22,686 bases of DNA. It comes from a virus. The position numbers and the translations under genes are program-made. The stretch is from positions 1 through 22,686 of IMG/VR virus record IMGVR_UViG_3300026503_000257. One strand, 5' to 3'. Within the stretch, counting starts at the first letter, position 1. Each line of letters starts with the position of its first letter. Shown one piece after another: positions 6,516 through 19,397 of this stretch. Under the pieces are notes generated by a model. It was given only the letters and a program-made list of their open reading frames with translations, made no database searches and was not told the origin of the DNA.

Positions 6516-7403
6516 TTATTTTCCTATTGCGTTGCCATATATGTGTACGTGTACTCGGCTTGTGTAATTGTATCCACGTTGTATTGCTTCATCGGCTATA
6601 CTTGCTTCTGTTTGTACCAAGCCTTCGAATGTACCGCCGACACCCATAATCCATACTGGGAAGTTACATCCTGCTTCTCTGAATAGTTTGGTATTTTCTT
6701 CTACTTCTCTCCAACTTTCATCAGTGCCATTTACTACAAATTTTAGTTGACCACGACTAGAGACTTCGGCATACTTACCTACCACTTCAGGCTGAATAGC
6801 CTTTTTAGATTTCTCACCAGCAGTGCTCCACAGTTTAGGACTGATACTCCAATACCATTCTTTGCCTTCACATCTAGTATAACAACGATTAATATAATCA
6901 GCAAACTCGTCAGTGATAGGTCTAGTACCATTTGTTTCTACAGTAACAAAGTTGGGCATATTATCTCTTTTAGCAAACTCGTCTAACACACCAATCATAC
7001 CTGGCTGTGTGTTCTTTAACATAGGCTCGCCACCTGTAAACACCATGTGCGTTTCTTGTAATGTTGCAGGATGAATAAAGCTACCGTGCGGCAGAAGGGC
7101 TGTAAGCTCGTCTACTGCATCCTTTACACTACGATCGGTAATGAGATGCTTAAACTTCTTACTCCACGTATACGAACTATCACATCCTTTGTCAAACACA
7201 GGAAGATCAAACACATTATCGATGTGCGTGATATCAATTTTCTCATATGGTAAGTCGTATGTGCTAGGGTCAGTAGGATCTGTTTGACCAAAGCCATTGC
7301 ATTGTAAATTACACAAAAAGAATCTCATCCACAGGCTAGGTATGCCTACATACTGCCCTTCTCCTTGTGCTGAATAAAATGTTTCGCTGTACTTTAAGTT
7401 CAT
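6516..7403 (-). CDS. queE: 7-carboxy-7-deazaguanine synthase, QueE-like radical SAM enzyme
   Basis: A 295-residue radical SAM enzyme expected to convert 6-carboxytetrahydropterin (CPH4) into CDG, the third step of the preQ0 pathway. Family signs are the N-terminal SETFYSAQGEGQYVGIPSLW, cluster cysteines C31 and C35 (CNLQCNG), the SAM-binding MVFTGGEPML (about 120-129), VTVETNGT and SISPKL. The third cluster Cys appears to be C74 in KGCDSSYTW, which matches the CDTxxTW of QueE, but about 36 extra residues lie between C35 and C74. Length exceeds the usual 210-245. It overlaps the preceding 88-residue gene by 4 bp (ATGA). Together with FolE and QueD it forms a CDG-making set. An activase related to NrdG is less likely because of the SYTW and ETNGT context. 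Confidence 0.88.
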   Translation of the reverse strand: MNLKYSETFYSAQGEGQYVGIPSLWMRFFLCNLQCNGFGQTDPTDPSTYDLPYEKIDITHIDNVFDLPVFDKGCDSSYTWSKKFKHLITDRSVKDAVDELTALLPHGSFIHPATLQETHMVFTGGEPMLKNTQPGMIGVLDEFAKRDNMPNFVTVETNGTRPITDEFADYINRCYTRCEGKEWYWSISPKLWSTAGEKSKKAIQPEVVGKYAEVSSRGQLKFVVNGTDESWREVEENTKLFREAGCNFPVWIMGVGGTFEGLVQTEASIADEAIQRGYNYTSRVHVHIYGNAIGK

Positions 7404-7666
7404 ATGTCTATGCCCTTTAACTTGAGATACACCATCTCATCTGGTGTAGCCCATTCTGTTCTGTTCAAGTGGTGTCTGGGGAATTGCGGCGGGTCTATTT
7501 TCATTTTCCTAGTTCTAGTGTAACCTACTCTAAACCAAATTAACGACTTATTAAAAGTAGACCTTCTTGGAAAAAGTACAAAGGTTTTCTTCCAATCACT
7601 GTATATTAGGTTATCTGCAGAATAAATATAGTCTACAGCATTACCGCTCTCACCCGGAATGGGCAC
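7400..7666 (-). CDS. Unknown 88-residue basic protein, GTG start
   Basis: Begins with GTG at 7666 that shares one base with the stop of the upstream gene (TAGTG), and ends overlapping the queE start by 4 bp. This complete coupling between the DUF433-like gene and queE suggests one translation unit. The sequence is aromatic and basic (DWKKTFVLFPRRSTF, then WFRVGYTRTRKMKIDPPQFPRHHLN) and could bind nucleic acid or a partner enzyme. No known motif, cysteine or membrane segment is seen. Function unknown, though its position invites a test for a role with QueE. Confidence 0.7.
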   Translation of the reverse strand: MPIPGESGNAVDYIYSADNLIYSDWKKTFVLFPRRSTFNKSLIWFRVGYTRTRKMKIDPPQFPRHHLNRTEWATPDEMVYLKLKGIDI

Positions 7667-8202
7667 TACATACCCATCCGTTCTTTTGTTTCTAAGTATT
7701 CATCGTAGTCTAAGTCTTGGCGTGTGCGCTCAATATCAACTAACACATTGGGTATATTTCTTATTAGAGCACTGTTAACTAATGTTTCTATATCAGTTAG
7801 ACTATGCTCTCCCCGTTCATGTAAGTCGATTATTCTTAGACAACAAACTCTCAATGCTAGGTTTACTAGTGTTGTAAAGGATTGTTTGTGCGGATAGTAC
7901 TGAAGCGAAGCTGCTAGTAGTTTCATATACGGAACTTGATGCAGCCTAGTAATTTCTATTACAACATCAAATTCATCTTTACCCACATTTATCAAGTCAA
8001 GTAACTGATCGTCTGGTGCTCCAGGTAACGTGGTATTTTCTGCATAAAAACTAATAGCATCCACAATGTCTTGCCTGTCCATCGATGGATAAAGTTCATA
8101 CAATTTTTCAAATGTTGCCCCACTTGCAATCTTATCACAAATGCCATCGACTGGGACAAGCCCGTTTGTTACAACGAATGTGTTCTGTCTTTTCTCGATC
8201 AT
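7666..8202 (-). CDS. Protein with DUF433-like N-terminal helix-turn-helix
   Basis: 178 residues. The N-terminal segment VPVDGICDKIASGATFEKLYELYPSMDRQDIVDAISFYAEN (given here by ends: residues about 17-57) follows the DUF433 pattern of a winged helix found in antitoxins, with PVD, an A-S-G-A turn, YPS and a D-I-V-D-A-I-xF helix. The rest (60-178) is helical with a Leu/Ile-rich core and no known motif. Usual DUF433 proteins are about 75 residues, so this has an extra C-terminal domain. It follows folE by 10 bp. A regulatory role near the deazaguanine genes is possible, as is a simple DNA-binding protein. Confidence 0.7.
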   Translation of the reverse strand: MIEKRQNTFVVTNGLVPVDGICDKIASGATFEKLYELYPSMDRQDIVDAISFYAENTTLPGAPDDQLLDLINVGKDEFDVVIEITRLHQVPYMKLLAASLQYYPHKQSFTTLVNLALRVCCLRIIDLHERGEHSLTDIETLVNSALIRNIPNVLVDIERTRQDLDYDEYLETKERMGM

Positions 8203-8212
8203 TGTTAGTGCC

Positions 8213-8890
8213 TTATTTAGATGAGTTTACAATGTTCATGAATTCAGCACGAACGTCTGGTTCGTTCTTAAAGCAACCTCCTAGCTTGCTAGTGATTGTT
8301 GAGGAGCCTGTGTCCTCGACACCTCGACTCTTAACGCAATAATGTTGTGCATCAACAATAACTCCAATATTGGGCGTATCTAATATATACGACAATGCAT
8401 GATAAACTTGTTCAGTTAATCTTTCTTGGATTTGTGGACGTTTAGCAAAATATTCAACAACTCTGTTAAGTTTACTAAGTCCTAGCACTCTTTCATTTGG
8501 GATGTAGCCCACTGTAGCAACACCATCAATTACAACAAAGTGATGCTCGCAGTTTGATTGAACATTAATGTTACGCTCAATAACCATTTCGTCGTACTTC
8601 ATTTTATTGTCTACTGCTGTACACTTTGGGAATGCTTCGTAGTCAAGTCCCCAAAAGATTTCGTTAACATACATCTTTGCCACACGCTTAGGTGTGTCCA
8701 TAAGACTGTCATCTGAAAGGTCTAGCCCCATGACGTTCATGATGTTTTTAAAGTGTTCTTCGATTAGATCAATTTTATCTGTACGAGAAAACCCGTTGTT
8801 ATCAACTGGTGTTTCAACACCCATCTTTACTAGATGTTCGTGTACTCTGCGACCCAGATCTGGGTCAGTTTTAGTCTTATTATAAGCCAT
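8213..8890 (-). CDS. folE: GTP cyclohydrolase I, FolE
   Basis: A 225-residue enzyme that opens GTP to 7,8-dihydroneopterin triphosphate, the first step toward deazaguanines and folate. The zinc ligands are visible: C114 in CEHHFVVIDG with H116/H117, and C185 in AQHYCVKSRGVED. The C-terminal part of the active site, with TGSSTITS and a GCF ending, is complete. Length matches the bacterial enzyme (about 222). The start at 8890 has a strong AGGAAGGAG site, and the gene lies behind a composite promoter region (8943-8972). In this window it feeds QueD and QueE, so the purpose is most likely base modification, not folate. It acts as a decamer in the cytoplasm in other organisms. Confidence 0.96.
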   Translation of the reverse strand: MAYNKTKTDPDLGRRVHEHLVKMGVETPVDNNGFSRTDKIDLIEEHFKNIMNVMGLDLSDDSLMDTPKRVAKMYVNEIFWGLDYEAFPKCTAVDNKMKYDEMVIERNINVQSNCEHHFVVIDGVATVGYIPNERVLGLSKLNRVVEYFAKRPQIQERLTEQVYHALSYILDTPNIGVIVDAQHYCVKSRGVEDTGSSTITSKLGGCFKNEPDVRAEFMNIVNSSK

Positions 8891-8933
8891 TCGATTCTCC
8901 TTCCTAACGCGGATTTAAATTTTTGAATTGTGT

Positions 8934-8951
8934 TGCTACCTTTGTGTAGCA
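8934..8951 (-). promoter_or_regulatory. 5'-terminal hairpin upstream of folE
   Basis: TGCTAC-ACAAAG-GTAGCA on the minus strand is a perfect 6-bp stem with a 6-nt loop. It starts about six bases past the GATAAATA octamer, so a late transcript would begin with the hairpin. It lies more than 30 nt upstream of the folE ribosome binding site and does not mask it. A role in mRNA stability is a guess. Confidence 0.45.
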
Positions 8952-8972
8952 TTTATATTTATCAACTGTCAA
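8943..8972 (-). promoter_or_regulatory. Composite promoter region for folE
   Basis: On the minus strand TTGACA (8967-8972) and TACACA (8943-8948) stand 18 bp apart, a plausible sigma70 promoter, and between them lies GATAAATA (8956-8963), a T4-type late octamer. The region overlaps the end of the upstream 64-residue gene. It suggests that folE can be transcribed both early by unmodified host polymerase and late. Confidence 0.45.
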
Positions 8973-9156
8973 GTTTGATAATACCATTTTCCCAATTTTC
9001 TACTACATCCTCAGCATAGTGGATGCTTTTATTGAGCAATGTACGTGTCTCTTTCATAACACCATCCTCGAACAAGTCGACGACATAAGTCATGTCAGGG
9101 CCTTTAGTACCATCGCTGATATATTTAACTTTTCTTATTTTTGCAATACGTTCCAT
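8962..9156 (-). CDS. Unknown 64-residue protein
   Basis: The chosen start is the ATG at 9156 that overlaps the stop of the phosphoribosyltransferase gene by one base (TAATG), with GTGGAAG as ribosome binding site. A start four codons earlier (9168) is also possible. The product MERIAKIRKVKYISDGTKGP has a basic N-terminus and an acidic helical C-terminus (HYAEDVVENWENGIIKLDS), with alternating hydrophobic residues that suggest a small beta-sheet followed by a helix. Function unknown. The folE promoter lies in its 3' end. Confidence 0.7.
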   Translation of the reverse strand: MERIAKIRKVKYISDGTKGPDMTYVVDLFEDGVMKETRTLLNKSIHYAEDVVENWENGIIKLDS

Positions 9157-9617
9157 TACTTCCACCATTCCTCATAAGGAAAAACGATCCAATTGTTATC
9201 CTCAAGTTCAATTTCTTCTGCATAATAGTCTACACCATCGAACGAACTTGATTGCTTGTTAAATATTGTAGCATATCTGATGTCAGAATACAAGCTATTA
9301 TTTTTATTAATAGCTTCAGATATACCAGACAGAGTGCTACCAGTGTCGTTGATATCATCGATAACAAGAATATCTGTGTTACTATGATTGCTTAAAATAC
9401 TTTGTAGTTGTTCAGCATCTTCGAAATCACCATCCCTTGTTTGCCAGTTGAATCCTTCGAACGGAACGTTTAAATAGTGACTGAGCATTACACCGGGTAT
9501 ATATCCTCCTCTACCAGGCCCAATTACTACACCTGGATTAAACGAGTCCAAGGAAATCATACGCACCAAATCAGCAAGGTATGATTCTAAATCATCCCAT
9601 GTATAAAATTTCTTCAT
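9156..9617 (-). CDS. Phosphoribosyltransferase
   Basis: A 153-residue type I phosphoribosyltransferase-fold protein. The PRPP-binding loop ILVIDDINDTGSTL (about residues 82-95) with the adjacent Asp pair is typical, and the P-P loop region VVIGPGRGGYIPGVML (about 30-45) resembles hypoxanthine/xanthine-guanine transferases. The length fits the Gpt type. Such enzymes join a nucleobase to PRPP. In this phage it could salvage guanine/xanthine for nucleotide supply, or act on a deazapurine, which is speculative. The start is the ATG at 9617, overlapping the epimerase stop (TGATG). The GTG one codon upstream is a less likely start. Confidence 0.85.
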   Translation of the reverse strand: MKKFYTWDDLESYLADLVRMISLDSFNPGVVIGPGRGGYIPGVMLSHYLNVPFEGFNWQTRDGDFEDAEQLQSILSNHSNTDILVIDDINDTGSTLSGISEAINKNNSLYSDIRYATIFNKQSSSFDGVDYYAEEIELEDNNWIVFPYEEWWK

Positions 9618-10600
9618 CACGTTTTCCTTTTAGATTTTGCAGATTGCCATTTGATCTCATCTCTGATAATATCTTCAATAGACATAGCAGGACTCCATCC
9701 TAATACTTTAGCGGCTTTGCTATTATCTGCAAAAGTACCTACCATATCACCCGGTCGCCTAGGCGTAATAGATGTATCAATCTCTGTGTCTAGTTCTTTT
9801 GCAACCAGATCAACAAGTTGTTTTGTGCTGACAGGATTGCTACTACCAATGTTTAATGTAGTTGAATCGCCACCGTCACTCAAGTAGTTAACAGCGGATT
9901 GGAACGCTCTTGCAACGTCACTCACGTGGGTATAGTCACGAATGTTTGTTCCGTCTACAGTGTCGTAGTCGTCGCCGTTAATCTCAAACCCTTCGTTCTC
10001 CATAGCTTTTCGTGTAAGTATGGGAAGAACATGAACAAGCGGATCTTTTTGATAACCGTATCGGCCATTAGCACTGCCTGCAACATTAAACAGTCTCAAG
10101 TTAACAAAGTTAAAATCGTTTGCCGTTGCATAGTCTTGGATAATTTGCTCACAGATCATTTTTGATCTGCCATATGGATTGATTGGACTTAGGCTATCGT
10201 CTTCTTTGAACATACCATTGTCTTGTTGGCTTGTACCGTATACACTACTACTTGATGCAAATATAAAGTTCTTTACACCAGCGTCAGCGCAGTTATTAAG
10301 CAAGTTGATTGTTTGATAGACATTTTGTGTGTACGTGGTCGCCGGGTCCTTCATACTAGCTGGTACACTGTTATTTGCCGCTATATGAATAACTACATCA
10401 GGTTTAAGTAACTTTAATATACCGTTAACTTGTTTGTTATCAACCTCAAACGGGTATTGGGTTACACCTTCTAATGTGCGTTTGCTTTTATCAATGTTAA
10501 CAACATTGTATCCGCTGTCTGATAACAATCGACAAACGTTACTTCCAATAAAGCCGCTGCCTCCCGTTACAACCACAGATTTTTCTGTTATGTTATTCAC
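9617..10600 (-). CDS. NAD-dependent sugar epimerase, GalE-like SDR
   Basis: An extended short-chain dehydrogenase of 327 residues, the family of UDP-glucose 4-epimerase and dTDP-glucose dehydratase. The Rossmann motif TGGSGFIGS lies at about 11-19, the catalytic ASSSSVYG serine segment near 113-120, and the NPYGRSKMICEQ tyrosine-lysine pair near 140. The C-terminal RPGDMVGTFADNSKAAKVLGW segment is typical of GalE-like epimerases. The start is the GTG at 10600, because AGAGGA lies seven bases upstream and it overlaps the stop of the glycosyltransferase gene (AGTGAATAA). A longer reading to 10639 is unlikely. It follows a GT4-like glycosyltransferase, so it probably supplies a nucleotide sugar to it. 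The sugar and final acceptor are not known. Confidence 0.9.
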   Translation of the reverse strand: MNNITEKSVVVTGGSGFIGSNVCRLLSDSGYNVVNIDKSKRTLEGVTQYPFEVDNKQVNGILKLLKPDVVIHIAANNSVPASMKDPATTYTQNVYQTINLLNNCADAGVKNFIFASSSSVYGTSQQDNGMFKEDDSLSPINPYGRSKMICEQIIQDYATANDFNFVNLRLFNVAGSANGRYGYQKDPLVHVLPILTRKAMENEGFEINGDDYDTVDGTNIRDYTHVSDVARAFQSAVNYLSDGGDSTTLNIGSSNPVSTKQLVDLVAKELDTEIDTSITPRRPGDMVGTFADNSKAAKVLGWSPAMSIEDIIRDEIKWQSAKSKRKT

Positions 10601-11651
10601 TTGTGTGTCCTCTAATAATTGTGTACAGTTTCTCACCACTGAAAAACTCTTTTCTTAAATTGCTTTCCAAATCTTGTATTCGATTATCTCGTTCGTAACT
10701 AGGAGTAAGAACTGCTTGTATGTATTCAACTATCTTATCCTTGTGGTTCAAATAGCTGTCCCAATCCTCTGTCCATGCACTTGGATATTTAAAGTAGTCA
10801 TCGTACATCTCTGTATAACTAAGTCTGTCTGGAACAATAGGTTGAGCACCTACAATGGCTCCTTCGTAACAACTGATGCCTAATGTTTCTTGTGTGTTAG
10901 CACTGAACACTGCTTTGGCTTTACCAAGTAGATCATGATACTCGTCTTTGGTTAGCGTTTGTTCCTGACAAACAATAAAGTCTGTGTCTGGAAAGCTGTT
11001 AGCTAAGTCTTTGAAAATATCAACTTGTTTTTCAGGTGCGACCCGATGAGGGAATAGTACAATATCTTCTTTGTCGGCAGAAGTATGTGTGTCTAATAAT
11101 CCCTTCATGTACTCCATTGGCCAACCCACTTTGTGAATTTTATTTAAATCCACATCTGGGAATGCCTCTAAAAATAATTCTATATGAAAGTCGGTAGCAT
11201 AAAAATTATCATCGAAGGCATTGAACATTGCAAGTTCTGTGTGTCTGCACCATGGAGCGTTACCTATCAGCCTTCCTAAAAAGTCTGCTGGGTCATAACT
11301 ACCGGCATGCCACATGCCTCCGATTTTAATTTTTACATCAAGTAATTCAGCCATATACTTTAATTGAAGAACTGTAGGGTTCCAAGCATCAGTGTATAAG
11401 AAGTAGTCTCCGTCTTGTACAGTACCGTCTGCAAACATCTGGCTAATTGTTTTCAGTTGCTCGCTTTTCCAGTAATTAGTTCCACTGAAGTTTAAAAATG
11501 CTCCCGGAGTTGTGTCTTGAGGAGCATCAGCTGGTCCCTCTATAACATGTACCTCTAGCCCAGCATCACGCATTTGCTGAGGCAAATGCTTTTTCCACTG
11601 CGCAGTGTATCTTGTTTCTACAGGTTCTATTTCAACTAAGTATACTTTCAT
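10593..11651 (-). CDS. GT-B glycosyltransferase (GT4-like)
   Basis: A 352-residue protein whose C-terminal half has the retaining GT4 layout: the donor-binding FPHRVAPEKQVDIFKDLA (about 199-216), KAVFSANTQETLGISCYEG (about 250-268) with the E-x7-E motif, and GAQPIVPDRLSYTEMY. The N-terminal half is less like GT4 and has a Trp/His/Cys-rich middle (GGMWHAGSYDP, APWCRHTELAMFN). No membrane segment is seen, so it acts in the cytoplasm. It transfers a sugar from a nucleotide donor. The acceptor might be an outer-membrane or capsule intermediate, a protein, or a modified DNA base. It sits immediately upstream of the GalE-like gene, which it overlaps by 8 bp. Confidence 0.85.
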   Translation of the reverse strand: MKVYLVEIEPVETRYTAQWKKHLPQQMRDAGLEVHVIEGPADAPQDTTPGAFLNFSGTNYWKSEQLKTISQMFADGTVQDGDYFLYTDAWNPTVLQLKYMAELLDVKIKIGGMWHAGSYDPADFLGRLIGNAPWCRHTELAMFNAFDDNFYATDFHIELFLEAFPDVDLNKIHKVGWPMEYMKGLLDTHTSADKEDIVLFPHRVAPEKQVDIFKDLANSFPDTDFIVCQEQTLTKDEYHDLLGKAKAVFSANTQETLGISCYEGAIVGAQPIVPDRLSYTEMYDDYFKYPSAWTEDWDSYLNHKDKIVEYIQAVLTPSYERDNRIQDLESNLRKEFFSGEKLYTIIRGHTSE

Positions 11652-11653
11652 AA

Positions 11654-11836
11654 TTACATGCTGTTCTTTTTATCTTGAATTTCTGCACGTCTAGTCTTAG
11701 CTAGTTTACCTAAATCGCCTAATGCTTTACGAGCACGAGCTGATGCAGCTTTCACACCCTTTGATTCGAATTTTTCACTCTCCTCTAAGTATGTTTCCAT
11801 TGCCGCTTTGATTTGTAAATGTGTTTCTGAACTCAT
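11654..11836 (-). CDS. Hc1-like small basic DNA-binding protein
   Basis: A 60-residue, Ala/Lys/Arg-rich protein starting MSSETHLQIKAAMETYLE. The core KAASARARKALGDLGKLAK (residues 29-47) followed by TRRAEIQDKKN follows the pattern of the chlamydial histone H1-like Hc1 family (KAAxxRxRxxxxxLxKLAKxxR). Such proteins condense or coat DNA. In the phage it could compact host or phage DNA during takeover or packaging, which is inference. Two helices are likely. It lies between two glycosyltransferase-like genes, 2 bp upstream of the GT4-like gene. A good AAGGAGAGAAC site precedes its ATG at 11836. Confidence 0.75.
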   Translation of the reverse strand: MSSETHLQIKAAMETYLEESEKFESKGVKAASARARKALGDLGKLAKTRRAEIQDKKNSM

Positions 11837-11852
11837 AGTTCTCTCCTTAGTG

Positions 11853-12887
11853 TTATTCCGTATTTGATACGGATTCGATTATGGCACCATAATTTTTTTG
11901 ATATTCCATTAGGGTGTCGTAATTATGTTGTAATATTTCTGCAGTTTCTAGTGAATACATATCGATATGCATTTGTTTAATGGACAGTCCTTTTAGCTGT
12001 TCCAGCACATGATTCATTCTCTTGTCGTCATCGAGCGAATCGTATCTTTCGTCAAATATGTGTGGGAAGGTTTTAAATCCCATTTTGCGTAACTCTTTCA
12101 ATGAATTTTTATTACCGATAAGTAAGAAAGGTCTCTTATTATATATGCTTCGGAATATCTTCTCACTGAAAAATACTGGTTCCCAATGCGCTAATTGTGC
12201 ACAATGAAACTGATCATGGAAATAAAATGTTTCAGGGACCAAGTCGAAGTAAGTTCTATCGTAAATATCAAAAAACTCTTTCCCTGGATCTTGAAAGGTT
12301 CTGCGCTCCATTACAGTTTTGTGTCCCTCAGCAGACTTTGGAACTTTGTCGTGAAACCATGGATGTAACTCTTCCTTAAAGTCGTTTATCCATGTCCATT
12401 CGCAACTGTCAATGAGATTATTTTCGTAGATATAATTCATTGCTTCGATACGATGGTCTCTTGGCTCTCCGCACAAGTATGTGAATAACTTTTCTCTGTG
12501 GGTATTGTTTCGTAATACCTCATATTGTGCATGGTAATCAGTTGTGTTTGTGACAAGTACGGATGCCCAAATTGGATAGTATGCTACAGTTAGTCTACTA
12601 CTTGGGTTGTTTTCTTTGCACCACATATCGTATAGATCTTGGACATTAACATTACCCCACCATAGTGTTACTAAACTGGGGTCAACGGATGCAATACTGC
12701 ACTGCTCGTATATAACAGTAAACAAGTCCATGCCACGAGAAGTGTGAGTAGATTGCCTATCCGGATCTATAAAAAGCCCGCCCTCAGTGATTAAGTCCAT
12801 TGAGATAGTCTCGCCAGCTGGCATCAGGGCTAACTCTTCGTGCAAAGTTTCGCCTGGGTAACCTGAATACAGCTGGATATGATTCAT
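11853..12887 (-). CDS. Putative glycosyltransferase-like protein (GT10/GT47-like C-terminus)
   Basis: 344 residues. The C-terminal portion EPVFFSEKIFRSIYNKRPF followed by LLIGNKNSLKELRKMGFKTF (about 235-275) resembles the nucleotide-sugar binding half of fucosyl- and exostosin-type glycosyltransferases, in which a T/S-E-K-x-xx-x-l segment and a KPFIxxG-x-xGSL loop are typical. The N-terminal half has an unusual Trp- and Asp-rich sequence and no recognisable motif. No signal peptide or membrane segment is visible. It overlaps the stop of queD (ATGA), so the two are translated together. It is the second glycosyltransferase-like gene in a 2.3-kb stretch. Confidence in a glycosyltransferase is moderate; an unrelated conserved phage protein is possible. 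Confidence 0.6.
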   Translation of the reverse strand: MNHIQLYSGYPGETLHEELALMPAGETISMDLITEGGLFIDPDRQSTHTSRGMDLFTVIYEQCSIASVDPSLVTLWWGNVNVQDLYDMWCKENNPSSRLTVAYYPIWASVLVTNTTDYHAQYEVLRNNTHREKLFTYLCGEPRDHRIEAMNYIYENNLIDSCEWTWINDFKEELHPWFHDKVPKSAEGHKTVMERRTFQDPGKEFFDIYDRTYFDLVPETFYFHDQFHCAQLAHWEPVFFSEKIFRSIYNKRPFLLIGNKNSLKELRKMGFKTFPHIFDERYDSLDDDKRMNHVLEQLKGLSIKQMHIDMYSLETAEILQHNYDTLMEYQKNYGAIIESVSNTE

Positions 12888-13252
12888 TCCTGATACTCTA
12901 TTTCACAACCATTTTCGTTGTCTTCTGCAACAGATATCTTTAGCCAGCGGTCTGGGTACTTGGCTTGTACATGCTCCGCTAAATCATCTGCGATCATTTC
13001 ACAGCTCTTGTAATCCAACTGCAATGTGTCTTGTGTGTACAGTCTTTCCATCCAGCGTTTAAACTGAATAAACTCCACGTCTCTGTCATTGTGGAACACT
13101 TCAAGCCAAACTTTAAAATGGAATATATGTCGGTGGGGATATCCTAAAAAAGATACGTCATCCCAATCGCCTGTTGCTAGATTGGGATCAGTATCAGCGC
13201 CTGGATACTTGTGTACACCTTCCTTTTGAAACGTTACCCAAATACTTCTCAT
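12884..13252 (-). CDS. queD: 6-carboxytetrahydropterin synthase-like protein, QueD
   Basis: A 122-residue member of the QueD/6-pyruvoyl-tetrahydropterin synthase fold, expected to turn dihydroneopterin triphosphate from FolE into CPH4 for QueE. Zinc ligands fit H14 (EGVHKYPG) and the H40-x-H42 pair (GYPHRHIFHF). The segment LDYKSCEMIADDL (79-91) matches the PTxEN helix, and E110 fits the catalytic Glu. The usual catalytic Cys four residues before the HxH is a Leu (L36), while C84 lies in the helix, so the chemistry may differ. The start is the ATG at 13252, overlapping the stop of the 24-residue peptide (TGATG) with GAGGA upstream. A TTG one codon earlier is not preferred. I recall close relatives of this sequence type in T4-like marine phages. 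Confidence 0.85.
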   Translation of the reverse strand: MRSIWVTFQKEGVHKYPGADTDPNLATGDWDDVSFLGYPHRHIFHFKVWLEVFHNDRDVEFIQFKRWMERLYTQDTLQLDYKSCEMIADDLAEHVQAKYPDRWLKISVAEDNENGCEIEYQE

Positions 13253-13326
13253 CAATCGTCCTCAGTTTTTATTACTATCCAAACTACTAGTATACTAAAC
13301 AATATTCCTGCAAATGCATATTCCAT
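13252..13326 (-). CDS. 24-residue membrane peptide
   Basis: A short frame starting ATG at 13326, which shares one base with the stop of the cytochrome gene (TAATG), and ending TGA at 13252-13254, overlapping the queD ATG. The product is MEYAFAGILFSILVVWIV plus a charged tail (IKTEDD). Residues 4-18 form one hydrophobic helix, long enough to span or anchor in a membrane. Ribosome binding would be by coupling. Its perfect fit between two coupled genes and its composition argue that it is real. It could be a partner subunit or anchor of the cytochrome, or a small holin-like or regulatory peptide. No database match can be given. Confidence 0.6.
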   Translation of the reverse strand: MEYAFAGILFSILVVWIVIKTEDD

Positions 13327-13802
13327 TACGCATCACTACCAAACGTATCGATATACTCTGCTAGGTCTTTGATGTCATCCTCTGACAACATACCTGCTTG
13401 CCCCCACATAAGTGCACTCTGTGCCCCTACTGTTTCTCCTGCTTTGTAACTACGTAAACGATCTACGATATATTCCACAGTCTGTCCTGCAAGCATGGGA
13501 CCAACTCCGCCTTGCCCACGTGCTCCGTGACAAGCACCACAAGAAGCATATTTTGCTTGCCCGGGCATAACATCAGCAGATGCTAATTGCACTCCGGCGC
13601 TTACAACATAGGCACTTGCTGACCCAGTAAAGTTTGCAGGTTCAGCAGATACGTGAACTACACCGAAGCCTTTGATTCTTTCTTCGATGCCTGCTAGTTG
13701 TTCTTTTGTAGTATCAGTACGTTTTGCTGCGAACACAGCTTGCTCGCCACAGCCGCCAATGAACAGTGTTGCTGCTAAGATTGTTGTTGTTAATAGTTTC
13801 AT
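13326..13802 (-). CDS. Lipoprotein cytochrome c, class I
   Basis: 158 residues. The first 18 residues are a signal peptide ending in a lipobox (FIGGC18), so the mature protein is probably a lipid-anchored periplasmic cytochrome. A single heme motif C88-G-A-C91-H92 lies in KYASCGACHGARGQGGVGP. The Met ligand is probably M132 (or M138) in QSALMWGQAGMLSEDD. The C-terminal SEDDIKDLAEYIDTF helix is typical of class I cytochromes of the c553/c5 type. Between residue 26 and 86 is a Ser/Ala/Val-rich segment with no known domain. The mature protein would carry electrons in the host respiratory chain and rely on the host Ccm/Ccs machinery. A phage-encoded cytochrome c is unusual. Overlaps the upstream gene by 4 bp (ATGA) with GGAG upstream. 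Confidence 0.93.
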   Translation of the reverse strand: MKLLTTTILAATLFIGGCGEQAVFAAKRTDTTKEQLAGIEERIKGFGVVHVSAEPANFTGSASAYVVSAGVQLASADVMPGQAKYASCGACHGARGQGGVGPMLAGQTVEYIVDRLRSYKAGETVGAQSALMWGQAGMLSEDDIKDLAEYIDTFGSDA

Positions 13803-14032
13803 GTGTTATCTCCGTCAAAATATTTAACATCACTTTTATTAAAAGGTTTATTATCGTCGCCTTTGACCAAAGAAACTAGTCGGGCGATCTCGTCTTTAAC
13901 CTTGAGTTTGGTTTTCTTAAGAAAGTTTACTCGCATATCACCTTCATAGTTTTCACTTGCAAGCTCAATTTGACTATCAAGTCTTTTGTGTTTTGTTTTA
14001 AGAACTTCAATTCTATCTTTCATTGTAGTCAT
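13799..14032 (-). CDS. YdcH/DUF465-like coiled-coil protein
   Basis: 77 residues with the pattern of the DUF465 (YdcH) family: HKRLDSQIELA (15-25), then FLKKTKLKVKDEIARL (37-52), a helix-turn-helix coiled coil. The family is short (about 60-75) and its function is not established. A C-terminal tail of 25 residues (GDDNKPFNKSDVKYFDGDN) is added here. The start at 14032 is preferred over the ATG three codons later because AGGAGGAGA is five bases upstream. It overlaps the 65-residue membrane protein by 20 bp and the cytochrome gene by 4 bp, so translation is coupled to both. Confidence 0.75.
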   Translation of the reverse strand: MTTMKDRIEVLKTKHKRLDSQIELASENYEGDMRVNFLKKTKLKVKDEIARLVSLVKGDDNKPFNKSDVKYFDGDNT

Positions 14033-14210
14033 CTTCTTCTCCTCCTAAGCACTTTCTGTCTTCAGGTTCAATTGGATTATCGTAATAATCGTGCGTTCCT
14101 GCTCTGTACCTTGCTTTCTTTTCGCTGACTAGAACACAACTCATATATGCCATCCATCCCATGCCCGCAAGAAAAATCAAACTGAATATAGTTTGTATTA
14201 CTTCAATCAT
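14013..14210 (-). CDS. Single-span membrane protein, 65 residues
   Basis: Residues 4-28 (IQTIFSLIFLAGMGWMAYMS) form one membrane segment. The following KKARYRAGTHDYYDNP and an acidic tail (PEPEDRKCLGGEEDDYNER-like) would lie on one side, with a basic cluster after the helix. The role is not known. Its gene overlaps the 41-residue gene upstream and the YdcH-like gene downstream, and it may be linked to the cytochrome that follows. No heme or metal motif is visible. Confidence 0.7.
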   Translation of the reverse strand: MIEVIQTIFSLIFLAGMGWMAYMSCVLVSEKKARYRAGTHDYYDNPIEPEDRKCLGGEEDDYNER

Positions 14211-14328
14211 CGGATAGCTCTGCCGTTGTGTTATAAAGACCTTTCATACTTTCGATAACTGCAATAATCTCTTCGACTTCGTCAGCATCATCTTTAGTAT
14301 CAATTTCTATTTCAATTTTAATTTTCAT
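14203..14328 (-). CDS. 41-residue acidic protein, probably leaderless
   Basis: Starts at the ATG at 14328 and ends TGA at 14203, overlapping the next start by 8 bp. The product is MKIKIEIEIDTKDDADEVEE with a short amphipathic tail (IIAVIESMKGLYNTTAELSDD). The beginning is alternating Lys/Ile/Glu, which suggests a beta strand followed by an acidic helix. A near-consensus promoter ends six bases upstream of this ATG, so the mRNA would begin at the start codon and no ribosome binding site is seen. Function unknown; it may serve mainly to start translation of the operon. Confidence 0.65.
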   Translation of the reverse strand: MKIKIEIEIDTKDDADEVEEIIAVIESMKGLYNTTAELSDD

Positions 14329-14334
14329 AATAAT

Positions 14335-14363
14335 ATTATACTGTATATAGGATCAATAGTCAA
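14335..14363 (-). promoter_or_regulatory. Near-consensus sigma70 promoter TTGACT-N17-TATAAT
   Basis: On the minus strand TTGACT (14358-14363) and a perfect TATAAT (14335-14340) are 17 bp apart. The upstream box lies in the 3' end of the PsiE-like gene. The predicted start (about 14328) coincides with the A of the 41-residue gene ATG. It would drive the 41-, 65- and 77-residue genes, cytochrome c, queD and further genes. Confidence 0.75.
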
Positions 14364-14799
14364 CCATTTTATTTGGCGTATCACCCCTTTGCTCCCTCAA
14401 ATTCACCTTTTCCAAACTAAGTTTATCCTTCAAACTCAATACATATGCACTCGCAGCAAGTATAGCAATACCTGTTGTTTCATAAAGTATAAATTCAGGC
14501 TCAGTTCCTTTAGTTGTTAATACAATCATTCTAGTCAGTGCTGTGATTGCAATAATGATAGGTAGTGTGACTGGTATTCTATGATCTTTATAAAATGCAC
14601 CAACCATACCTAATATTTCTGCGTAAATAAACAATAGGAATAAGTCGGCCAATGCCATCTTTCCGCTTGTTGTGAACATATGCAAAATATCAAACCCAGC
14701 TGCCCATACTGTACCTGCTACAATAAACAATAGCAATGCTTTTTCCATATGCATAATAATTCTATGGACAGAGTTCTTATATTTTCTACTGAATGACAT
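14353..14799 (-). CDS. psiE: PsiE-like four-helix membrane protein
   Basis: 148 residues with four hydrophobic segments (about 18-42, 50-66, 75-92, 106-122). The central stretch FIYAEILGMVGAFYKDHRIPVTL and ITALTRMIVL follows the phosphate-starvation-inducible PsiE pattern, with an aromatic/acidic E in the second segment and an R in the third. The C-terminal tail is charged and cytoplasmic. PsiE is induced by phosphate starvation in E. coli, but its biochemical role is unknown. In a marine phage it fits other phosphate-related auxiliary genes. The ATG at 14799 overlaps the upstream stop (TAATG) with GAGGTAAT upstream. Confidence 0.75.
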   Translation of the reverse strand: MSFSRKYKNSVHRIIMHMEKALLLFIVAGTVWAAGFDILHMFTTSGKMALADLFLLFIYAEILGMVGAFYKDHRIPVTLPIIIAITALTRMIVLTTKGTEPEFILYETTGIAILAASAYVLSLKDKLSLEKVNLREQRGDTPNKMVDY

Positions 14800-15329
14800 T
14801 ACTCTATTACCTCGTCGCCCACATATTCAGTCCAATCGGTGTACTTGGATCTGTCTTTGAGGTCGTGTAAACTGTGGCACCAAACACCTGTGTTTGTTCC
14901 TTTGAATGATTTATCATCTAGTTTGAGTGTTGTATTGTAGTTAAACAATTTGATATTCGGAAGTCGAACAGCAATCATAGGGATAAATTTATTGTAGTCA
15001 GTCCAGCCGTTATCGTGAAACCATTCGTGATTAGCATAGGAGCTGTCGAAATCAAGTGTGACCCATACATCAGCGTCTAACAGTTGCGTAATAATGTAAT
15101 CCCATTCTGCCCACGAGTTCGAATCATCTTGTGGCTGAAATGAGTCAGCACATCCTAAGTACACATGATCAATTTTGTTGTTTAGACATCTTGCTAAAAT
15201 CTCCTTAACATTTTGTCTACCAATAACAAACAACGTTTTTTTGCCATACAGAGGAGTATGCTCAACTTCAGTACCAATAAAGAACTTTGGATCGTCTCCA
15301 AAGTTGGTCCTACCTTCTACTGTTGCCAT
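14799..15329 (-). CDS. Conserved T4-like phage protein, unknown function
   Basis: 176 residues starting MATVEGRTNFGDDPKFFIG. A Rossmann-like beginning KKTLFVIGRQNVKEILARCL (about 30-49) is followed by DHVYLGCADSFQP, a segment VWVTLDFDSSYA (about 88-99) with acidic residues, and a C-terminal GVWCHSLHDLKDRSKYTDW (about 148-167). I recall proteins with this layout in T4-like marine cyanophages, always annotated as hypothetical. The LDFD segment and a His/Trp/Cys-rich C-terminus suggest a metal-binding or catalytic protein, but no fold can be named. It overlaps the MDR dehydrogenase gene by 13 bp and is coupled to psiE, so its partners may be the two dehydrogenases upstream. Confidence 0.75.
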   Translation of the reverse strand: MATVEGRTNFGDDPKFFIGTEVEHTPLYGKKTLFVIGRQNVKEILARCLNNKIDHVYLGCADSFQPQDDSNSWAEWDYIITQLLDADVWVTLDFDSSYANHEWFHDNGWTDYNKFIPMIAVRLPNIKLFNYNTTLKLDDKSFKGTNTGVWCHSLHDLKDRSKYTDWTEYVGDEVIE

Positions 15330-16207
15330 GTTAAATATGTCCTGTTCTTGTCTATGCTTGTTGTTCTGTTGTTAAATGCAGTACCGGCTTCTGTAGTAGG
15401 ATACTCGGCGCCCCACATATCGTCAACGTTAATGATATTCTTTTGTACTAATAAGTTTGCCTTAACCATACTGTTATAAAACGTTTTTGTTCTCGGACTA
15501 GGAAAATCCGTTCTAATCGATTTCCATAGAAACGGAGCAAAGTCTACATCACCGTGCTTCTCTGCACACATTAAATAGTGACCATTGTTATTAAGTATGT
15601 CGGCAGTAAAATACTTTATATGACTCGACAAGTCGACAACTACATCATACTGATCAGATAGATTATGTTCTCGCCTAGCACCTTTATCATCCCACCAGTC
15701 AGAGTATGCTTTACCTGTTACTGTAACATTACGTAATCTGCTTTTGTTATTGTACTCTAACACTTCATATATTACTCTTGCTAAGAAGCCTGTGCCTATC
15801 ATTAGCAATGACCTATTACCTAATTTACCAATTATGTCTGCAATGTTTACAGCACATGCCACAGGCTCTAGTATATATTTAGGCATTGCCGCTGGAACAA
15901 CAACAAATTCTCCGTCTCTAACATTATAGTAGTCTGCAAATGCAGGCTCTCCTCTAGTGGCTACAATGTCGCCTACCTTTGCAGTACTTACATTTTTGCC
16001 AACAGACATAACTTCGCCTAGCCCTTCATGCCCGTGCATGTTATCAGGCAACATGTTCATGTCACCATTAAACATGGCTACGTCACTACTGCATATACCT
16101 GTGTATATAGACTTAACTACTATTTGGTCTTCGGTGTGTTCAGGTTTATCCCACTCGATATGAGATATTGTCTTATCGCTGTTCACTTTAATTAAATTAC
16201 ATTTCAT
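15317..16207 (-). CDS. Zinc-dependent MDR dehydrogenase lacking the structural zinc lobe
   Basis: 296 residues of the medium-chain alcohol dehydrogenase superfamily. The GroES-like domain has C39 (TGICSSD), H60-E61 (MHGHEGLGEV) and EPVACA as catalytic zinc ligands, VGDIV near 77-81, and an NAD(P) loop LLMIGTGFLARVIYEVL near 135. Directly after VGDIVATRGEPAFADYYNV the usual four-Cys structural zinc lobe is missing, and total length is 50 residues below normal. It overlaps the Gfo/Idh/MocA gene by 11 bp. With that enzyme it could oxidise or reduce a sugar or polyol. The substrate is unknown. Confidence 0.85.
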   Translation of the reverse strand: MKCNLIKVNSDKTISHIEWDKPEHTEDQIVVKSIYTGICSSDVAMFNGDMNMLPDNMHGHEGLGEVMSVGKNVSTAKVGDIVATRGEPAFADYYNVRDGEFVVVPAAMPKYILEPVACAVNIADIIGKLGNRSLLMIGTGFLARVIYEVLEYNNKSRLRNVTVTGKAYSDWWDDKGARREHNLSDQYDVVVDLSSHIKYFTADILNNNGHYLMCAEKHGDVDFAPFLWKSIRTDFPSPRTKTFYNSMVKANLLVQKNIINVDDMWGAEYPTTEAGTAFNNRTTSIDKNRTYLTWQQ

Positions 16208-17078
16208 TTTCGTGGTACCTTTCTAGCTGACTATGTATCCATAGATCCATATCAATGTGGTCTTGGTAACTATCTTTCTCTGAACGTGCTATCATTCTTC
16301 CGTATGCGTCATTAGGGCATAACCCAAACCGCCATTCGTATGTGCTGTCTTCTGTGTATACTTTTACACTCTGATCATCAATGCCAGTCTTCCATCCTGC
16401 TTTTATTGTAACAGGCACATTGTTCCAAGTCCAATGCTCTTCGGCATAGTCACACACATCATATACACCTTCTGCATTTACATTACCGTAGTTTGTTGAT
16501 AATAATTCTTCTAGTTCCCACTGTCTTGTTTTAGTATGGCTCACAAAAGACATCTCTGTTAACGGAACAATTTTACTTAGGTTACAATATAAGTGTGGGA
16601 ACAAATCTAAAGCCACTCCACCCCATGCAAGTTTTTTATTTGTGAACCAACTACCCGGACTAGGAACACGATTTGCATTCAACCATGATACTTCAATCTT
16701 GGTTGGTCTTATACTCTTATTCAACAGATCGTCTAGTGCGCCGTATGATGTTCGATATAGATTATTTTTACACATGATGTACTTTGTATCAGTGTATCTA
16801 TTCTGCAGGCGTGTTAATGCTTCCACACTGGGTAAACCAGGCTTTTCAATAAACACAGTTTTGCAATACATACCAACTTTTTCGGCAATAGGAAGGTGTG
16901 TAAAATTAGGCGTACAAATAACAGCAACATCAAATTCTCCACGAACATCGTCGACGTTGTTATAATTTGCTGTAACAACTTGCTGATCCACAGTTGTGAC
17001 TGTGTACCCTAACTGAGTTAACTCAGGTAAGTAAACGTTAGACCCTATACCCCCTAGACCAACAAGTAATGCTCTCAT
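16197..17078 (-). CDS. Gfo/Idh/MocA family oxidoreductase
   Basis: 293 residues. The N-terminal Rossmann fold has GLGGIGSNVYLPEL (7-20), VAVICTPNFTHLPIAEK (51-67) and the family signature FIEKPG with E78-K79-P80. The C-terminal half holds the beta-sheet domain, with WLNANRVPSPGSW, GGVALDLFPHLYC (D and H likely at the active site) and a Trp-rich last segment. These enzymes oxidise or reduce sugars, inositols or related compounds with NAD(P). It starts within the dpdA stop (ATGA) with a AGGAGA site and is followed by the MDR enzyme, so the two probably act in one short pathway, perhaps to make a sugar or side chain. Confidence 0.9.
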   Translation of the reverse strand: MRALLVGLGGIGSNVYLPELTQLGYTVTTVDQQVVTANYNNVDDVRGEFDVAVICTPNFTHLPIAEKVGMYCKTVFIEKPGLPSVEALTRLQNRYTDTKYIMCKNNLYRTSYGALDDLLNKSIRPTKIEVSWLNANRVPSPGSWFTNKKLAWGGVALDLFPHLYCNLSKIVPLTEMSFVSHTKTRQWELEELLSTNYGNVNAEGVYDVCDYAEEHWTWNNVPVTIKAGWKTGIDDQSVKVYTEDSTYEWRFGLCPNDAYGRMIARSEKDSYQDHIDMDLWIHSQLERYHENEM

Positions 17079-18610
17079 AGTTCTCCTACTAGCTCTCCGA
17101 GTGCCTCTTCTTGAATAGCATCAAACTCTCCTTCGACTTGTTGCTCTACTTCCTCATCGAAGAACATACTAGCAGCACTAGTCTTAAATGCAGTATCATG
17201 ATCTTTGTGTTTGTTATTGCTAACGTCATTTAGGAATTCATGCGCATCATCTAACAATTGGTGAGGATTGTCGCTTTGGAATAACTCTTCAACAAACGTG
17301 TTAAACATCAGTAAGTTTCTAGGAGTGTATAAACTCTCTTGATTGAGTTTCTTACCCTTCTTCTGCCAGCTTCTCCAATCCAACTTGTAGTTTTCAAACT
17401 CAATAGTTGCTAGACTATTTGCTTCCTGTACTGCTCTAATATGCATGTAAACATTGTGTGCCATCAGCATACCATACGTAAAACTATCCCAAGAAGTTTT
17501 ACCTTCTTTGTTGATCTTGTTTAACATACCGGGAGCATACCAATTAACATCACCAGTTACAAGCCTACTACCAATCTCACTCTCCCACGGGAAAGGATTA
17601 GCAGACAAGTTACCAGGACTAAAGTGTGAGTTCGCTTTATTGTCGAAGCACTTCTCCATTATGTAACTCATTTGTTCACTGGTAATTTTATTACGTGTGT
17701 ATACTAATCCATTAGCACTACTGATATATGGACTAGCACAATCAAAACTAACTGTGATGTTTGGATTAACATGCTCTCTGAGTTGTCGTTGCACACTTGT
17801 AAGCATAACTGCCCACTCTAGTTTACTTGTACCCAAGAAGTGAATCCAATCTCGATCCTGTAGTTTTTCATCATCACGTAAAGTAATGATACGTTTCAGT
17901 GCCATGTGCATGTCACGGATATTATTACCACCCATGCCCCAGCCTTCTGTGTCGTAGTCCTTAACTTTTTGATACCATTCTTCTGCATCTTCCCAATAGG
18001 TTCCTTGCAGTACATTCAAGAACTTTGTCTTGCCTTGTCTATGATCCATAAACCAATCTAAGTTGTATGCAGTACACTTCAAGCACTCATCAAAGTTCTG
18101 TAGTCCAGTCTTCTCTCTAAAGCCCGGCTTACATGCCCAGCTAGGAACATCAAACGTCATACTCCAGTCTGCTGTGTGTTCTAGCCAGTTAAGGATCTTG
18201 CCCCTAACTTTGTCAGCATCGCCTTTGTATCCAACATCGCCAGGCTTCTCAAAGAAGTTTTCCCAGTCAAACTTAATAACACCTTTACCAATCTGGAAAC
18301 CACCTGAATCCCCTACGATAGTTGTGTTAGCTCTGTCTCTATGTTGTATGATGTGTTCCATTACCTTACTCTTCTCTATGTCCAAGTAAGCATGTCCAGC
18401 ACTATACAACCCTTTGTTATAGTAGTAGTAACCCTTCTCTTTGTCCAAGAAGTTCATGCCCTCAAAGCCATGTTCGAAGCCTTTGGGTACTCGACCGTCC
18501 GGAATATATCCATCCACACTGTTGCATCTGCCTAGTAGCTCTGTCATAAAGCCACTAATAGCTGGGAGGAAAGTTGCGTAATCGCTATGCTTGGAGGATA
18601 GATCTCTCAT
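17075..18610 (-). CDS. dpdA: TGT-fold 7-deazaguanine transglycosylase, DpdA-like
   Basis: A 511-residue relative of tRNA-guanine transglycosylase. The two acidic catalytic sites are visible, DSGGFQ with D101 (Asp102 in bacterial TGT) and SFDCASP with D290 (nucleophile Asp280 in TGT), the latter followed by ANGLVYT in place of RNG-xxFT. VLQGTYWEDAEEW and GWGMGGNN match the base-binding regions. The CxCxxC zinc site of tRNA TGTs is not seen. The length and a C-terminal extension of about 150 residues rich in Glu/Asp fit phage DpdA, which replaces guanine in DNA with a deazaguanine. It lies one base after gp45, with the ribosome binding site AGGAG in the end of that gene, and before the Gfo gene, and would use CDG or preQ0 from FolE-QueD-QueE. 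A tRNA enzyme is less likely. Confidence 0.85.
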   Translation of the reverse strand: MRDLSSKHSDYATFLPAISGFMTELLGRCNSVDGYIPDGRVPKGFEHGFEGMNFLDKEKGYYYYNKGLYSAGHAYLDIEKSKVMEHIIQHRDRANTTIVGDSGGFQIGKGVIKFDWENFFEKPGDVGYKGDADKVRGKILNWLEHTADWSMTFDVPSWACKPGFREKTGLQNFDECLKCTAYNLDWFMDHRQGKTKFLNVLQGTYWEDAEEWYQKVKDYDTEGWGMGGNNIRDMHMALKRIITLRDDEKLQDRDWIHFLGTSKLEWAVMLTSVQRQLREHVNPNITVSFDCASPYISSANGLVYTRNKITSEQMSYIMEKCFDNKANSHFSPGNLSANPFPWESEIGSRLVTGDVNWYAPGMLNKINKEGKTSWDSFTYGMLMAHNVYMHIRAVQEANSLATIEFENYKLDWRSWQKKGKKLNQESLYTPRNLLMFNTFVEELFQSDNPHQLLDDAHEFLNDVSNNKHKDHDTAFKTSAASMFFDEEVEQQVEGEFDAIQEEALGELVGEL

Positions 18611-18611
18611 C

Positions 18612-19367
18612 TTAACTCCTAGCCGGTAGTAAGTATGTGTAGTTGCCTAAGCCACTGTCTACAGTTAGTTGAAGTAAGCCTTGATTATTAAAGCTCATAC
18701 TAACATTTGAGCTATCACCTAATCGAAGAATCTTTAATACAACTTCAAGAGGCCAATTCCATTCTGTAGTGATGTCTCCACTAACATTGTTATCAATAAG
18801 AATCTTAGTTCGGTTGCTACCCAATGTGCCTACGTAGAAATATAATGCACCGTTCTCAGTTTTTGGCATAAAGTTTGCTTCATAAGAACCTAATACTCCA
18901 GTGAAGTAGCCCAAATCTTGTAGCATCTTCTTAGTAGGAGAAATAGTTACATCAAATGCTGCACCTTTAAACTTAATGTCTTTTAACTGCTGATTGATAA
19001 CATCAGCTAACATAAATCTGTAATGAGCATCCGTACCTTCTGTAGTCTTAAATTCTACTTCAACAGGTACTTCTTCATCGTTTCGAGTTTGCTTTAGTAC
19101 TTGTATAGTTGCACTCTCATCGTCAAAGCCAGGATACTGTAAGTAACCCTTCAGTACGTTCATAGTACTTAGACCCACAGTTGAACCTGCAAAGTCTACA
19201 ACAGGGTTAGCTGTCTCGCCCTTAAAGATAACTGTTTTGTCTGCGTCTACAGTTTCTACTACAGTTTCTGATGTAGTACCTTTGATCTTTACCATTTCGA
19301 ATATACCCAGGTCGTGAGTGTGTCTCACAACATCTTTCAGCACATCTTTAATATAATTGTTACTCAT
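18612..19367 (-). CDS. 45: Sliding clamp, gp45-like
   Basis: A 251-residue processivity clamp (T4 gp45 is 228). The N-terminal MSNNYIKDVLKDVVRHTHDL is typical, followed by two PCNA-like halves with repeated beta strands (TVIFKGETANPVVDFAG and NTVGLSTMNVLKGYLQY types) and the C-terminal NNQGLLQLTVDSGLGNYTYLLPA. It forms a trimeric ring that ties polymerase gp43 to DNA and, in T4, activates late transcription through gp33 and gp55. The start is the ATG at 19367 because GGAGGAAACT lies directly before it; a start four codons earlier has no site. A TTGACT-N17-TACAAT promoter lies 30-60 bp upstream, and dpdA follows with a one-base gap. Confidence 0.93.
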   Translation of the reverse strand: MSNNYIKDVLKDVVRHTHDLGIFEMVKIKGTTSETVVETVDADKTVIFKGETANPVVDFAGSTVGLSTMNVLKGYLQYPGFDDESATIQVLKQTRNDEEVPVEVEFKTTEGTDAHYRFMLADVINQQLKDIKFKGAAFDVTISPTKKMLQDLGYFTGVLGSYEANFMPKTENGALYFYVGTLGSNRTKILIDNNVSGDITTEWNWPLEVVLKILRLGDSSNVSMSFNNQGLLQLTVDSGLGNYTYLLPARS

Positions 19368-19397
19368 AGTTTCCTCCAAATAGAACTAGTTGTGTGT

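Follow-up and report, generated by a model that had tools for sequence, protein, structure and literature searches.

The closest described systems to the genes analyzed here are those of the DpdA/preQ0-archaeosine phages 9g, CAjan and Rosebush, for which the available part of the published account (Hutinet 2019) likewise gives FolE, QueE, an exchange enzyme of the tRNA-guanine transglycosylase (TGT) superfamily and a clustered gene arrangement. The present genes are found in the IMG/VR virus record IMGVR_UViG_3300026503_000257, which was analyzed over its complete length of 22,686 bases and is termed the window. Unlike the 9g, CAjan and Rosebush systems, no QueC has been found here and no QueF match is over the cut-off, the DpdA is only distantly related to that of 9g, and there are in addition a QueD-fold paralog, a conserved protein termed x14799, a glycosyltransferase (GTa) and sugar enzymes. 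FolE, QueE and DpdA are best read, from their sequences, as synthesis of 7-carboxy-7-deazaguanine (CDG) plus base exchange into DNA. The synthesis and exchange are well supported, and DNA is the probable target of the exchange. It is proposed, at about even chances, that the cassette as a whole exchanges in a deazaguanine without the need for QueC, after which the base is glycosylated.

Other systems are comparable in part. The deoxynucleosides of CDG and 7-deazaguanine (dCDG and dDG) have reportedly been described in phage DNA in work by Cui from 2023, which is said to propose a CDG decarboxylase, DpdL. There the pathway reportedly likewise stops at or branches from CDG, and to our knowledge no glycosyltransferase is part of that work. 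T4-type glucosyl- and arabinosyl-hydroxymethylcytosine resembles the present proposal in that a phage glycosyltransferase acts on a modified DNA base; here, however, the base would be a purine and not a pyrimidine, and the acceptor would come from base exchange. In the galactosyl- and mannosyl-queuosine of vertebrate tRNA, a 7-deazaguanine derivative likewise bears a sugar, however that system is one of tRNA and eukaryotic enzymes, with the sugar on the cyclopentene ring of queuosine. Deazaguanine systems of jumbo phages are already in print, and a system for deazaguanine synthesis and incorporation has been predicted for PA5oct, a phage of the same kind as that of the window (Iyer 2021, PMC7824862); the available portion of that paper connects neither a glycosyltransferase nor a QueD-paralog with that system. 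The idea that CDG, the substrate of QueC, is inserted for lack of QueC is also known, having been suggested in 2019 for phage Bipper (PMC6884629, available in part). Glycosylated deazaguanine in phage DNA finds no mention in the available parts of PMC6884629, PMC13282480, PMC7824862, PMC13329287 and PMC12783734 or among the literature entries listed.

A second contig, G001 (339,794 bases), is from the same phage and displays 100% identity over window positions 2,596–22,686 in two overlapping alignments (17,056 and 15,609 bases); window bases 1–2,595 are outside of this comparison. All of the cassette genes described below are on the minus strand. FolE (positions 8213–8890) is a predicted GTP cyclohydrolase I, with 316 bits to the NCBIfam model NF006824 (E-value = 1.1e-94), where the cut-off is 202. 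The gene at positions 6516–7403 is predicted to encode a QueE-type radical S-adenosylmethionine CDG synthase and matches the phage family phrog_2076, 'QueE-like', in PHROGs (E-value = 1.7e-50). Its best score to the curated NCBIfam QueE models is 35 bits, far under the cut-off of 240. The cluster cysteines C31 and C35 are each kept in 133 of 133 homologs and C74 in 132 of 133, and a long insertion separates the second cysteine from the third.

The DpdA-like protein (positions 17075–18610, 511 amino acids) is a putative DNA guanine transglycosylase. It has no match in Pfam, PHROG or NCBIfam, and a sequence search of the PDB shows no meaningful relative. Profile comparison places it in the TGT superfamily. 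Its profile matches a mixed DpdA/TGT set with an hhalign value of 92.5% (E-value = 4.9e-7) and the DpdA type of phages ACP17 and X1 with 95.1%, and this type in turn matches E. coli TGT with 92.3%. Comparison with E. coli TGT alone is weak (17%, E-value = 0.0015), with QG, GG and FDCxxP in register, and that with the single 9g DpdA sequence is also weak (0.6%). D101 of the DSGGFQ motif and D290 of the FDCASP motif, which are presumably of the catalytic type of the superfamily, are found in 214 of 214 homologs. As to a similarity to DpdA2 of Vibrio phage nt-1, a tblastn search with the window protein lists 13 records at 1e-5, of which Vibrio phage 2.275.O is the sole Vibrio record, and a Vibrio phage VH7D region considered as a possible source of DpdA2 has no gene annotated as such. 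A first interpretation of this DNA made without database searches (the sequence-only reading) had named these FolE, QueE and DpdA-like genes and had placed them, with a QueD, on a shared strand; the three identities and the common strand of all four genes are borne out.

The fourth gene is not the QueD of the pathway. The open reading frame, taken as QueD at 12884–13252, extends over positions 12884–13255 when translated from TTG at 13255 (the alternative start is ATG at 13252) and encodes a 123 amino acid protein that matches phrog_17812, a family of unknown function (E-value = 1.3e-32), and no other family. This family is also present in Cellulophaga phage phiST. An AlphaFold2 model (pLDDT 90.8) displays a T-fold. 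The top rows of a Foldseek search are E. coli QueD 4ntk (E-value = 2.4e-4, TMq 0.69), and VIA gives QueD a Z of 11.0 (root mean square deviation 2.8, 109 aligned residues), which ties within 1 Z with 6-pyruvoyltetrahydropterin synthase (PTPS, 11.8) and dihydroneopterin aldolase (10.9). Against true QueD, the profile of the paralog scores 85.7% in deep alignments (271 versus 35 sequences) and 34.5% in shallow ones (8 versus 5), where four unrelated cassette families score 0.1%–1.1%. A PDB sequence search lists thioredoxin first (E-value = 0.16) and PTPS second (E-value = 0.56).

The zinc-type histidines H15, H41 and H43 of the paralog are found in 269, 270 and 270 of 270 sequences, and Glu86 is conserved. 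The cysteine of QueD located four residues ahead of the first His of the HxH motif, which we take to be catalytic, is invariant in five of five aligned QueD sequences and is replaced by leucine in 270 of 270 paralogs. The true PTPS/QueD gene of the phage is at positions 151014–151394 of G001. A separate PF01242 QueD is present in 13 of 19 searched records, including G001 and eight of eight named phages; the six records that lack it are all IMG/VR records below 82 kb. The separate gene in all eight named phages, together with the uniform Leu-for-Cys replacement, rules out the 12884–13255 product as the pathway QueD. It is best seen as an extra member of the pathway, i.e. a QueD-fold paralog. 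Its fold, its linkage and the lack of QueC suggest that it acts on CDG. Decarboxylation of CDG is a guess that leans on the DpdL reportedly proposed, for which phrog_17812 is a candidate.

QueC has no match in the window, in agreement with the sequence-only reading. The further suggestion that QueC might be carried elsewhere finds no support in G001, a contig of 339,794 bases for which completeness is not given: the search shows a single match under the cut-off (E-value = 6.1e-5, positions 2–61), which was rejected since the protein is NadE-like by eye. A NadE-like NAD synthetase, so classified by eye, is encoded at L038:922–1866 in G001, and a similar protein is found in locus L035. The QueC scan that included G001 gave four matches, one of which (L035) is over the cut-off along with its neighbors; of the four, L035 and L038 were inspected as proteins. 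There is no QueC match in PA5oct, Phosso, ACP17, BUCT-ZZ01, RHph_I1_18, phiST, Bakedbeans and Ahp1, and the match in X1 is under the cut-off and on a protein that is NadE-like by eye. Thus QueC over the cut-off is absent in nine of ten named paralog-bearing phages. A full QueC is found in Vibrio 2.275.O and, as a Gat-QueC, in PhiXhv-12, and both are without the paralog by tblastn. QueF is over the cut-off in one of 12 searched records (2.275.O); weak QueF matches in G001 and PA5oct fall inside the FolE coordinates and were rejected. Independence from a phage QueC is supported by these searches for the window phage and most of the isolates, not for the whole group.

GTa (positions 10593–11651) is a predicted GT4-type (GT-B) glycosyltransferase. 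R203, K208 and E263 are each found in 235 of 235 sequences, and position 255, the other residue of the EX7E-type motif, is E in 182 and D in 53. The roles of these residues are presumably those in GT4-type retaining glycosyltransferases. The PF00534 match is under the cut-off in the window protein and over it in the X1 homolog. An N-terminal ERYT motif is constant, but ERYT was the pattern used to search for homologs. Gene linkage suggests a deazaguanine base in DNA as the putative acceptor, and we infer the sugar and its linkage. A PF00303 protein (thymidylate synthase/hydroxymethylase family), another point of difference from the T4-type systems, is not found in four of six phages, i.e. G001, ACP17, X1 and BUCT-ZZ01, so that in these four a hydroxymethyl-pyrimidine does not readily suggest itself as the acceptor.

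Several candidate sugar enzymes accompany GTa. An NAD-dependent nucleotide-sugar epimerase/dehydratase (positions 9617–10639, PF01370, E-value = 2.9e-53, with a GTG start as called) overlaps GTa by 47 bases. A Gfo/Idh/MocA oxidoreductase, putatively for sugar oxidation (positions 16197–17078, PF01408, E-value = 3.4e-8), overlaps the DpdA gene by four bases and has the Lys of its EKP motif in 54 of 55 sequences. A short zinc-type alcohol dehydrogenase (ADH)-like oxidoreductase of the medium-chain dehydrogenase/reductase type (positions 15317–16207, PF08240, E-value = 2.9e-11) almost always accompanies Gfo/Idh; the numbers of loci with each are equal or one apart, and the pair has the same order in PA5oct gp123-gp122. 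The sugar-tailoring partners vary: the window has Gfo/Idh, ADH and epimerase, and PhiXhv-12 combines Gat-QueC with Gfo/Idh and a PIG-L deacetylase. A phosphoribosyltransferase (PRTase, positions 9156–9620, PF00156, E-value = 3.1e-12) is a candidate for salvaging the guanine that DpdA sets free; its homolog in BUCT-ZZ01 adjoins QueE and is annotated as a xanthine-guanine PRTase.

The x14799 protein (positions 14799–15329) is assigned to the cassette by synteny and displays only a weak structural likeness to QueE. Its model (pLDDT 68) has no Foldseek match at E ≤ 0.001, the top VIA row, B. subtilis QueE 5th5, has a Z of 6.4, which is below the trust level, and profile comparison with QueE gives 0.3%. 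A PDB sequence search shows no meaningful relative. From the model, x14799 may be a decayed QueE-like protein.

These genes form a conserved cassette and not a scatter. The sequence-only reading had described the four genes as spread among unrelated ones; a good number of the genes in between are themselves conserved parts of the cassette, and many gene junctions in the window overlap, by 1–47 bases. The usual order in relatives runs from Pol and the clamp through DpdA, (Gfo/Idh, ADH-like), x14799, QueD-paralog, GTa and (epimerase) to PRTase and FolE, either of which may come first, and ends with QueE. Linkage was examined in IMG/VR loci which are mostly the best 80 matches of each scan; the loci are mutually related, some contigs recur across scans, and they are not independent trials. 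IMG/VR has at least 584 stretches encoding a GTa relative and at least 573 encoding a relative of the paralog. Among the GTa-anchored loci, 34 of 80 have at least 7 kb on both sides, and these contain the paralog in 33, DpdA in 33, QueE in 32, FolE in 31, x14799 in 31, PRTase in 25, the epimerase in 19, Gfo/Idh and ADH in 18 each, and the clamp in 33. The 28 such wide loci among 80 anchored on the paralog show GTa in 28, DpdA in 27, FolE in 26, x14799 in 25, PRTase in 23, the epimerase in 21, QueE in 20 and Gfo/Idh in four. Three divergent paralog seeds (ACP17, BUCT-ZZ01 and X1) gave 157 loci, 72 of them (16, 20 and 36, respectively) with at least 5.5 kb on both sides. GTa is present in 68 of the 72 (12, 20 and 36 by seed), DpdA in 63 (9, 19 and 35), FolE in 61, x14799 in 57 and QueE in 39 (13, 15 and 11); Gfo/Idh is present in 1, 10 and 7.

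Most of the cassette core recurs, rearranged, in the isolated phages PA5oct, Phosso, ACP17, X1 and BUCT-ZZ01. The order in ACP17 is QueD-FolE-x14799-DpdA-GTa-paralog-QueE, and the genes from x14799 through QueE, GTa included, abut or overlap. The X1 order is FolE-x14799-GTa-DpdA-paralog-QueE, with QueD elsewhere; the X1 open reading frame ahead of x14799 is PIG-L-like by eye and is without a Pfam match. BUCT-ZZ01 displays QueE-PRTase-QueD-FolE-DpdA-paralog-GTa, and x14799 is not found. PA5oct has DpdA-GTa-paralog-PRTase-QueE, a second block of Gfo/Idh-ADH-x14799 and a third of FolE and QueD. In Phosso the order is paralog-GTa-FolE-QueE, the DpdA gene is far off, and x14799 is not found. The DpdA proteins fall into two subfamilies, that of ACP17, X1 and BUCT-ZZ01 and that of PA5oct and the window. 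The togetherness of rearranged genes across isolate lineages is a stronger argument for linkage than the IMG/VR locus counts.

In PhiXhv-12 a related glycosyltransferase lies in a series that begins with Gat-QueC and continues with a PIG-L deacetylase, the glycosyltransferase and a Gfo/Idh protein. The Gat-QueC gene (L063:9669–11192) bears the annotation L-glutamine-D-fructose-6-phosphate aminotransferase, but its product fuses a glutamine amidotransferase with QueC.

Read from the enzyme identities, the conserved active sites, the cassette linkage and the lack of QueC in the same-phage contig, all of them evident at the level of sequence, the pathway would begin with formation of CDG from GTP by the phage's own FolE, the QueD encoded elsewhere in the genome, and QueE. 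No QueC of the phage would be used. The QueD-paralog would turn CDG into the base employed, with decarboxylation to 7-deazaguanine as the leading guess, and the DpdA-like enzyme would swap that base for guanine in DNA. GTa would then add to the modified base a sugar supplied by the epimerase and the Gfo/Idh and ADH-like oxidoreductases, and the PRTase would presumably recycle the displaced guanine. CDG synthesis with exchange into DNA, as put forward in the sequence-only reading, still accounts best for FolE, QueE and DpdA; the direct insertion of CDG which it considered leaves out the conserved paralog, x14799 and the glycosyltransferase. A more specific form of the proposal, held tentatively, is that a very large environmental phage group has in its DNA a glycosylated purine, for which 7-deazaguanine made from CDG by the paralog is inserted by DpdA and receives a sugar from GTa at the exposed, nucleophilic C7 or elsewhere, possibly as a C-glycoside.

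Several observations weigh against exchange followed by glycosylation. GTa is missing in 4 of the 72 wide paralog loci and, at 1e-5, in 5 of 10 named paralog lineages, a grouping of our own (RHph_I1_18, the phiST group, Bakedbeans, Ahp1 and D479), thus glycosylation would not be obligatory. Gfo/Idh is not general, being present in 18/34, 4/28, 1/16, 10/20 and 7/36 loci in the sets above. Three of 80 GTa loci (L102, L103 and L117) and one of 80 paralog loci have no other deazaguanine gene in the available DNA; the three may be split cassettes or represent a different use of GTa. The clamp gene is as constant as the cassette genes (33/34) and the loci are related, thus linkage is in part shared ancestry. 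The Phosso DpdA and PA5oct FolE genes are distant from the remaining cassette genes, and both phages encode a PF00303 protein, so a hydroxymethyl-pyrimidine acceptor is possible there. Profile models detect neither DpdA nor QueE nor FolE in the 24.7 kb of PhiXhv-12 analyzed, and the FolE of this phage is located elsewhere. A true QueD is found in 7 of 14 contigs of a second set (82–328 kb). As to QueC, D479 has a partial match over the cut-off that lacks the SGGxDS motif, and 6 of the same 14 large cassette contigs have a QueC-family match over the cut-off. Several such matches in cassette contigs are about 200–300 amino acids in length with SGGxDS and C-terminal cysteines (L239, L240, L241, L243, L244 and L245).

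The phages and loci that have the paralog without GTa would fit an alternative in which CDG or paralog-made 7-deazaguanine is inserted without a sugar, and GTa and the sugar enzymes serve some other target, e.g. a polysaccharide of the host surface or a virion protein. The suggestion of CDG insertion in Bipper (PMC6884629) and the assignment of glycosyltransferase clusters of jumbo cyanophages to polysaccharide modification (PMC7824862), each in the portion of the paper available, are in accord with it. However five isolate lineages, in which the gene order differs, and nearly all of the wide-flank loci have GTa adjoining the paralog, DpdA or both, and in ACP17 it lies within the abutting or overlapping run from x14799 to QueE; insertion without a sugar is a possible but doubtful explanation. 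The short QueC-like proteins bear on another alternative, in which QueC, perhaps with QueF, is borrowed from the host and preQ0 or preQ1 is inserted, the paralog being an accessory QueD and some relatives using a short QueC-like protein of their own. QueC is common in bacteria (12 of 14 control genomes have it over the cut-off), the DpdA gene of 2.275.O, a member of the same family, has QueC, QueF and a transporter gene in its vicinity, and 9g dpdA alone in E. coli puts preQ0 into plasmid DNA (PMC6884629, available part). The absence of QueC over the cut-off in nine of the ten named paralog phages, its presence without the paralog in 2.275.O and PhiXhv-12, and a separate true QueD in the eight named phages, though in only half of the further large contigs, make borrowing improbable. 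Membership of the DpdA-like protein in the TGT superfamily would also allow it to act on tRNA, the cassette then altering host translation. This is very improbable: the distant relative 9g DpdA acts on DNA, according to the available part of PMC6884629, and the cassette is near DNA polymerase and clamp genes.

Other open reading frames are found in and around the cassette of the window. GTb (positions 11853–12887, 344 amino acids) is glycosyltransferase-like by eye only, has no Pfam or PHROG match and overlaps the QueD-paralog gene by four bases. It is not widely conserved and is found in L006 (the same phage), L008 and L019. A 60 amino acid protein, x11654 (positions 11654–11836), precedes GTa in close relatives. 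The DpdA neighbor at positions 18612–19379, also on the minus strand, encodes a sliding-clamp-like protein homologous to the Phosso 'sliding clamp beta' and PA5oct gp170 and is considered context and not part of the pathway. A cytochrome c-like protein is encoded inside the cassette at positions 13326–13802 (PF00034, E-value = 8.7e-10); by eye, it displays a CGACH haem motif and a lipoprotein-like N-terminus, and it has a 47% homolog in L019. Downstream of the cassette there are, by eye, SGNH-hydrolase-like (1721–2794), glutaredoxin-like (3527–3763) and HNH-like (1179–1691) open reading frames.

Isolated carriers of the cassette exist; BUCT-ZZ01 has the host Synechococcus elongatus PCC 7942, Phosso is a Sinorhizobium phage, and eleven are Pseudomonas records of the PA5oct group. 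If the proposal is correct, phrog_17812 and GTa, and perhaps x14799 as well, would gain a function; most of the matched phage records label these proteins as hypothetical. A sugar on a base-exchanged purine would bring 7-deazaguanine exchange and base glycosylation, each already known as a form of DNA armour, together in a single widespread cassette, and would give a large marine phage a novel type of DNA protection against bacterial defences.

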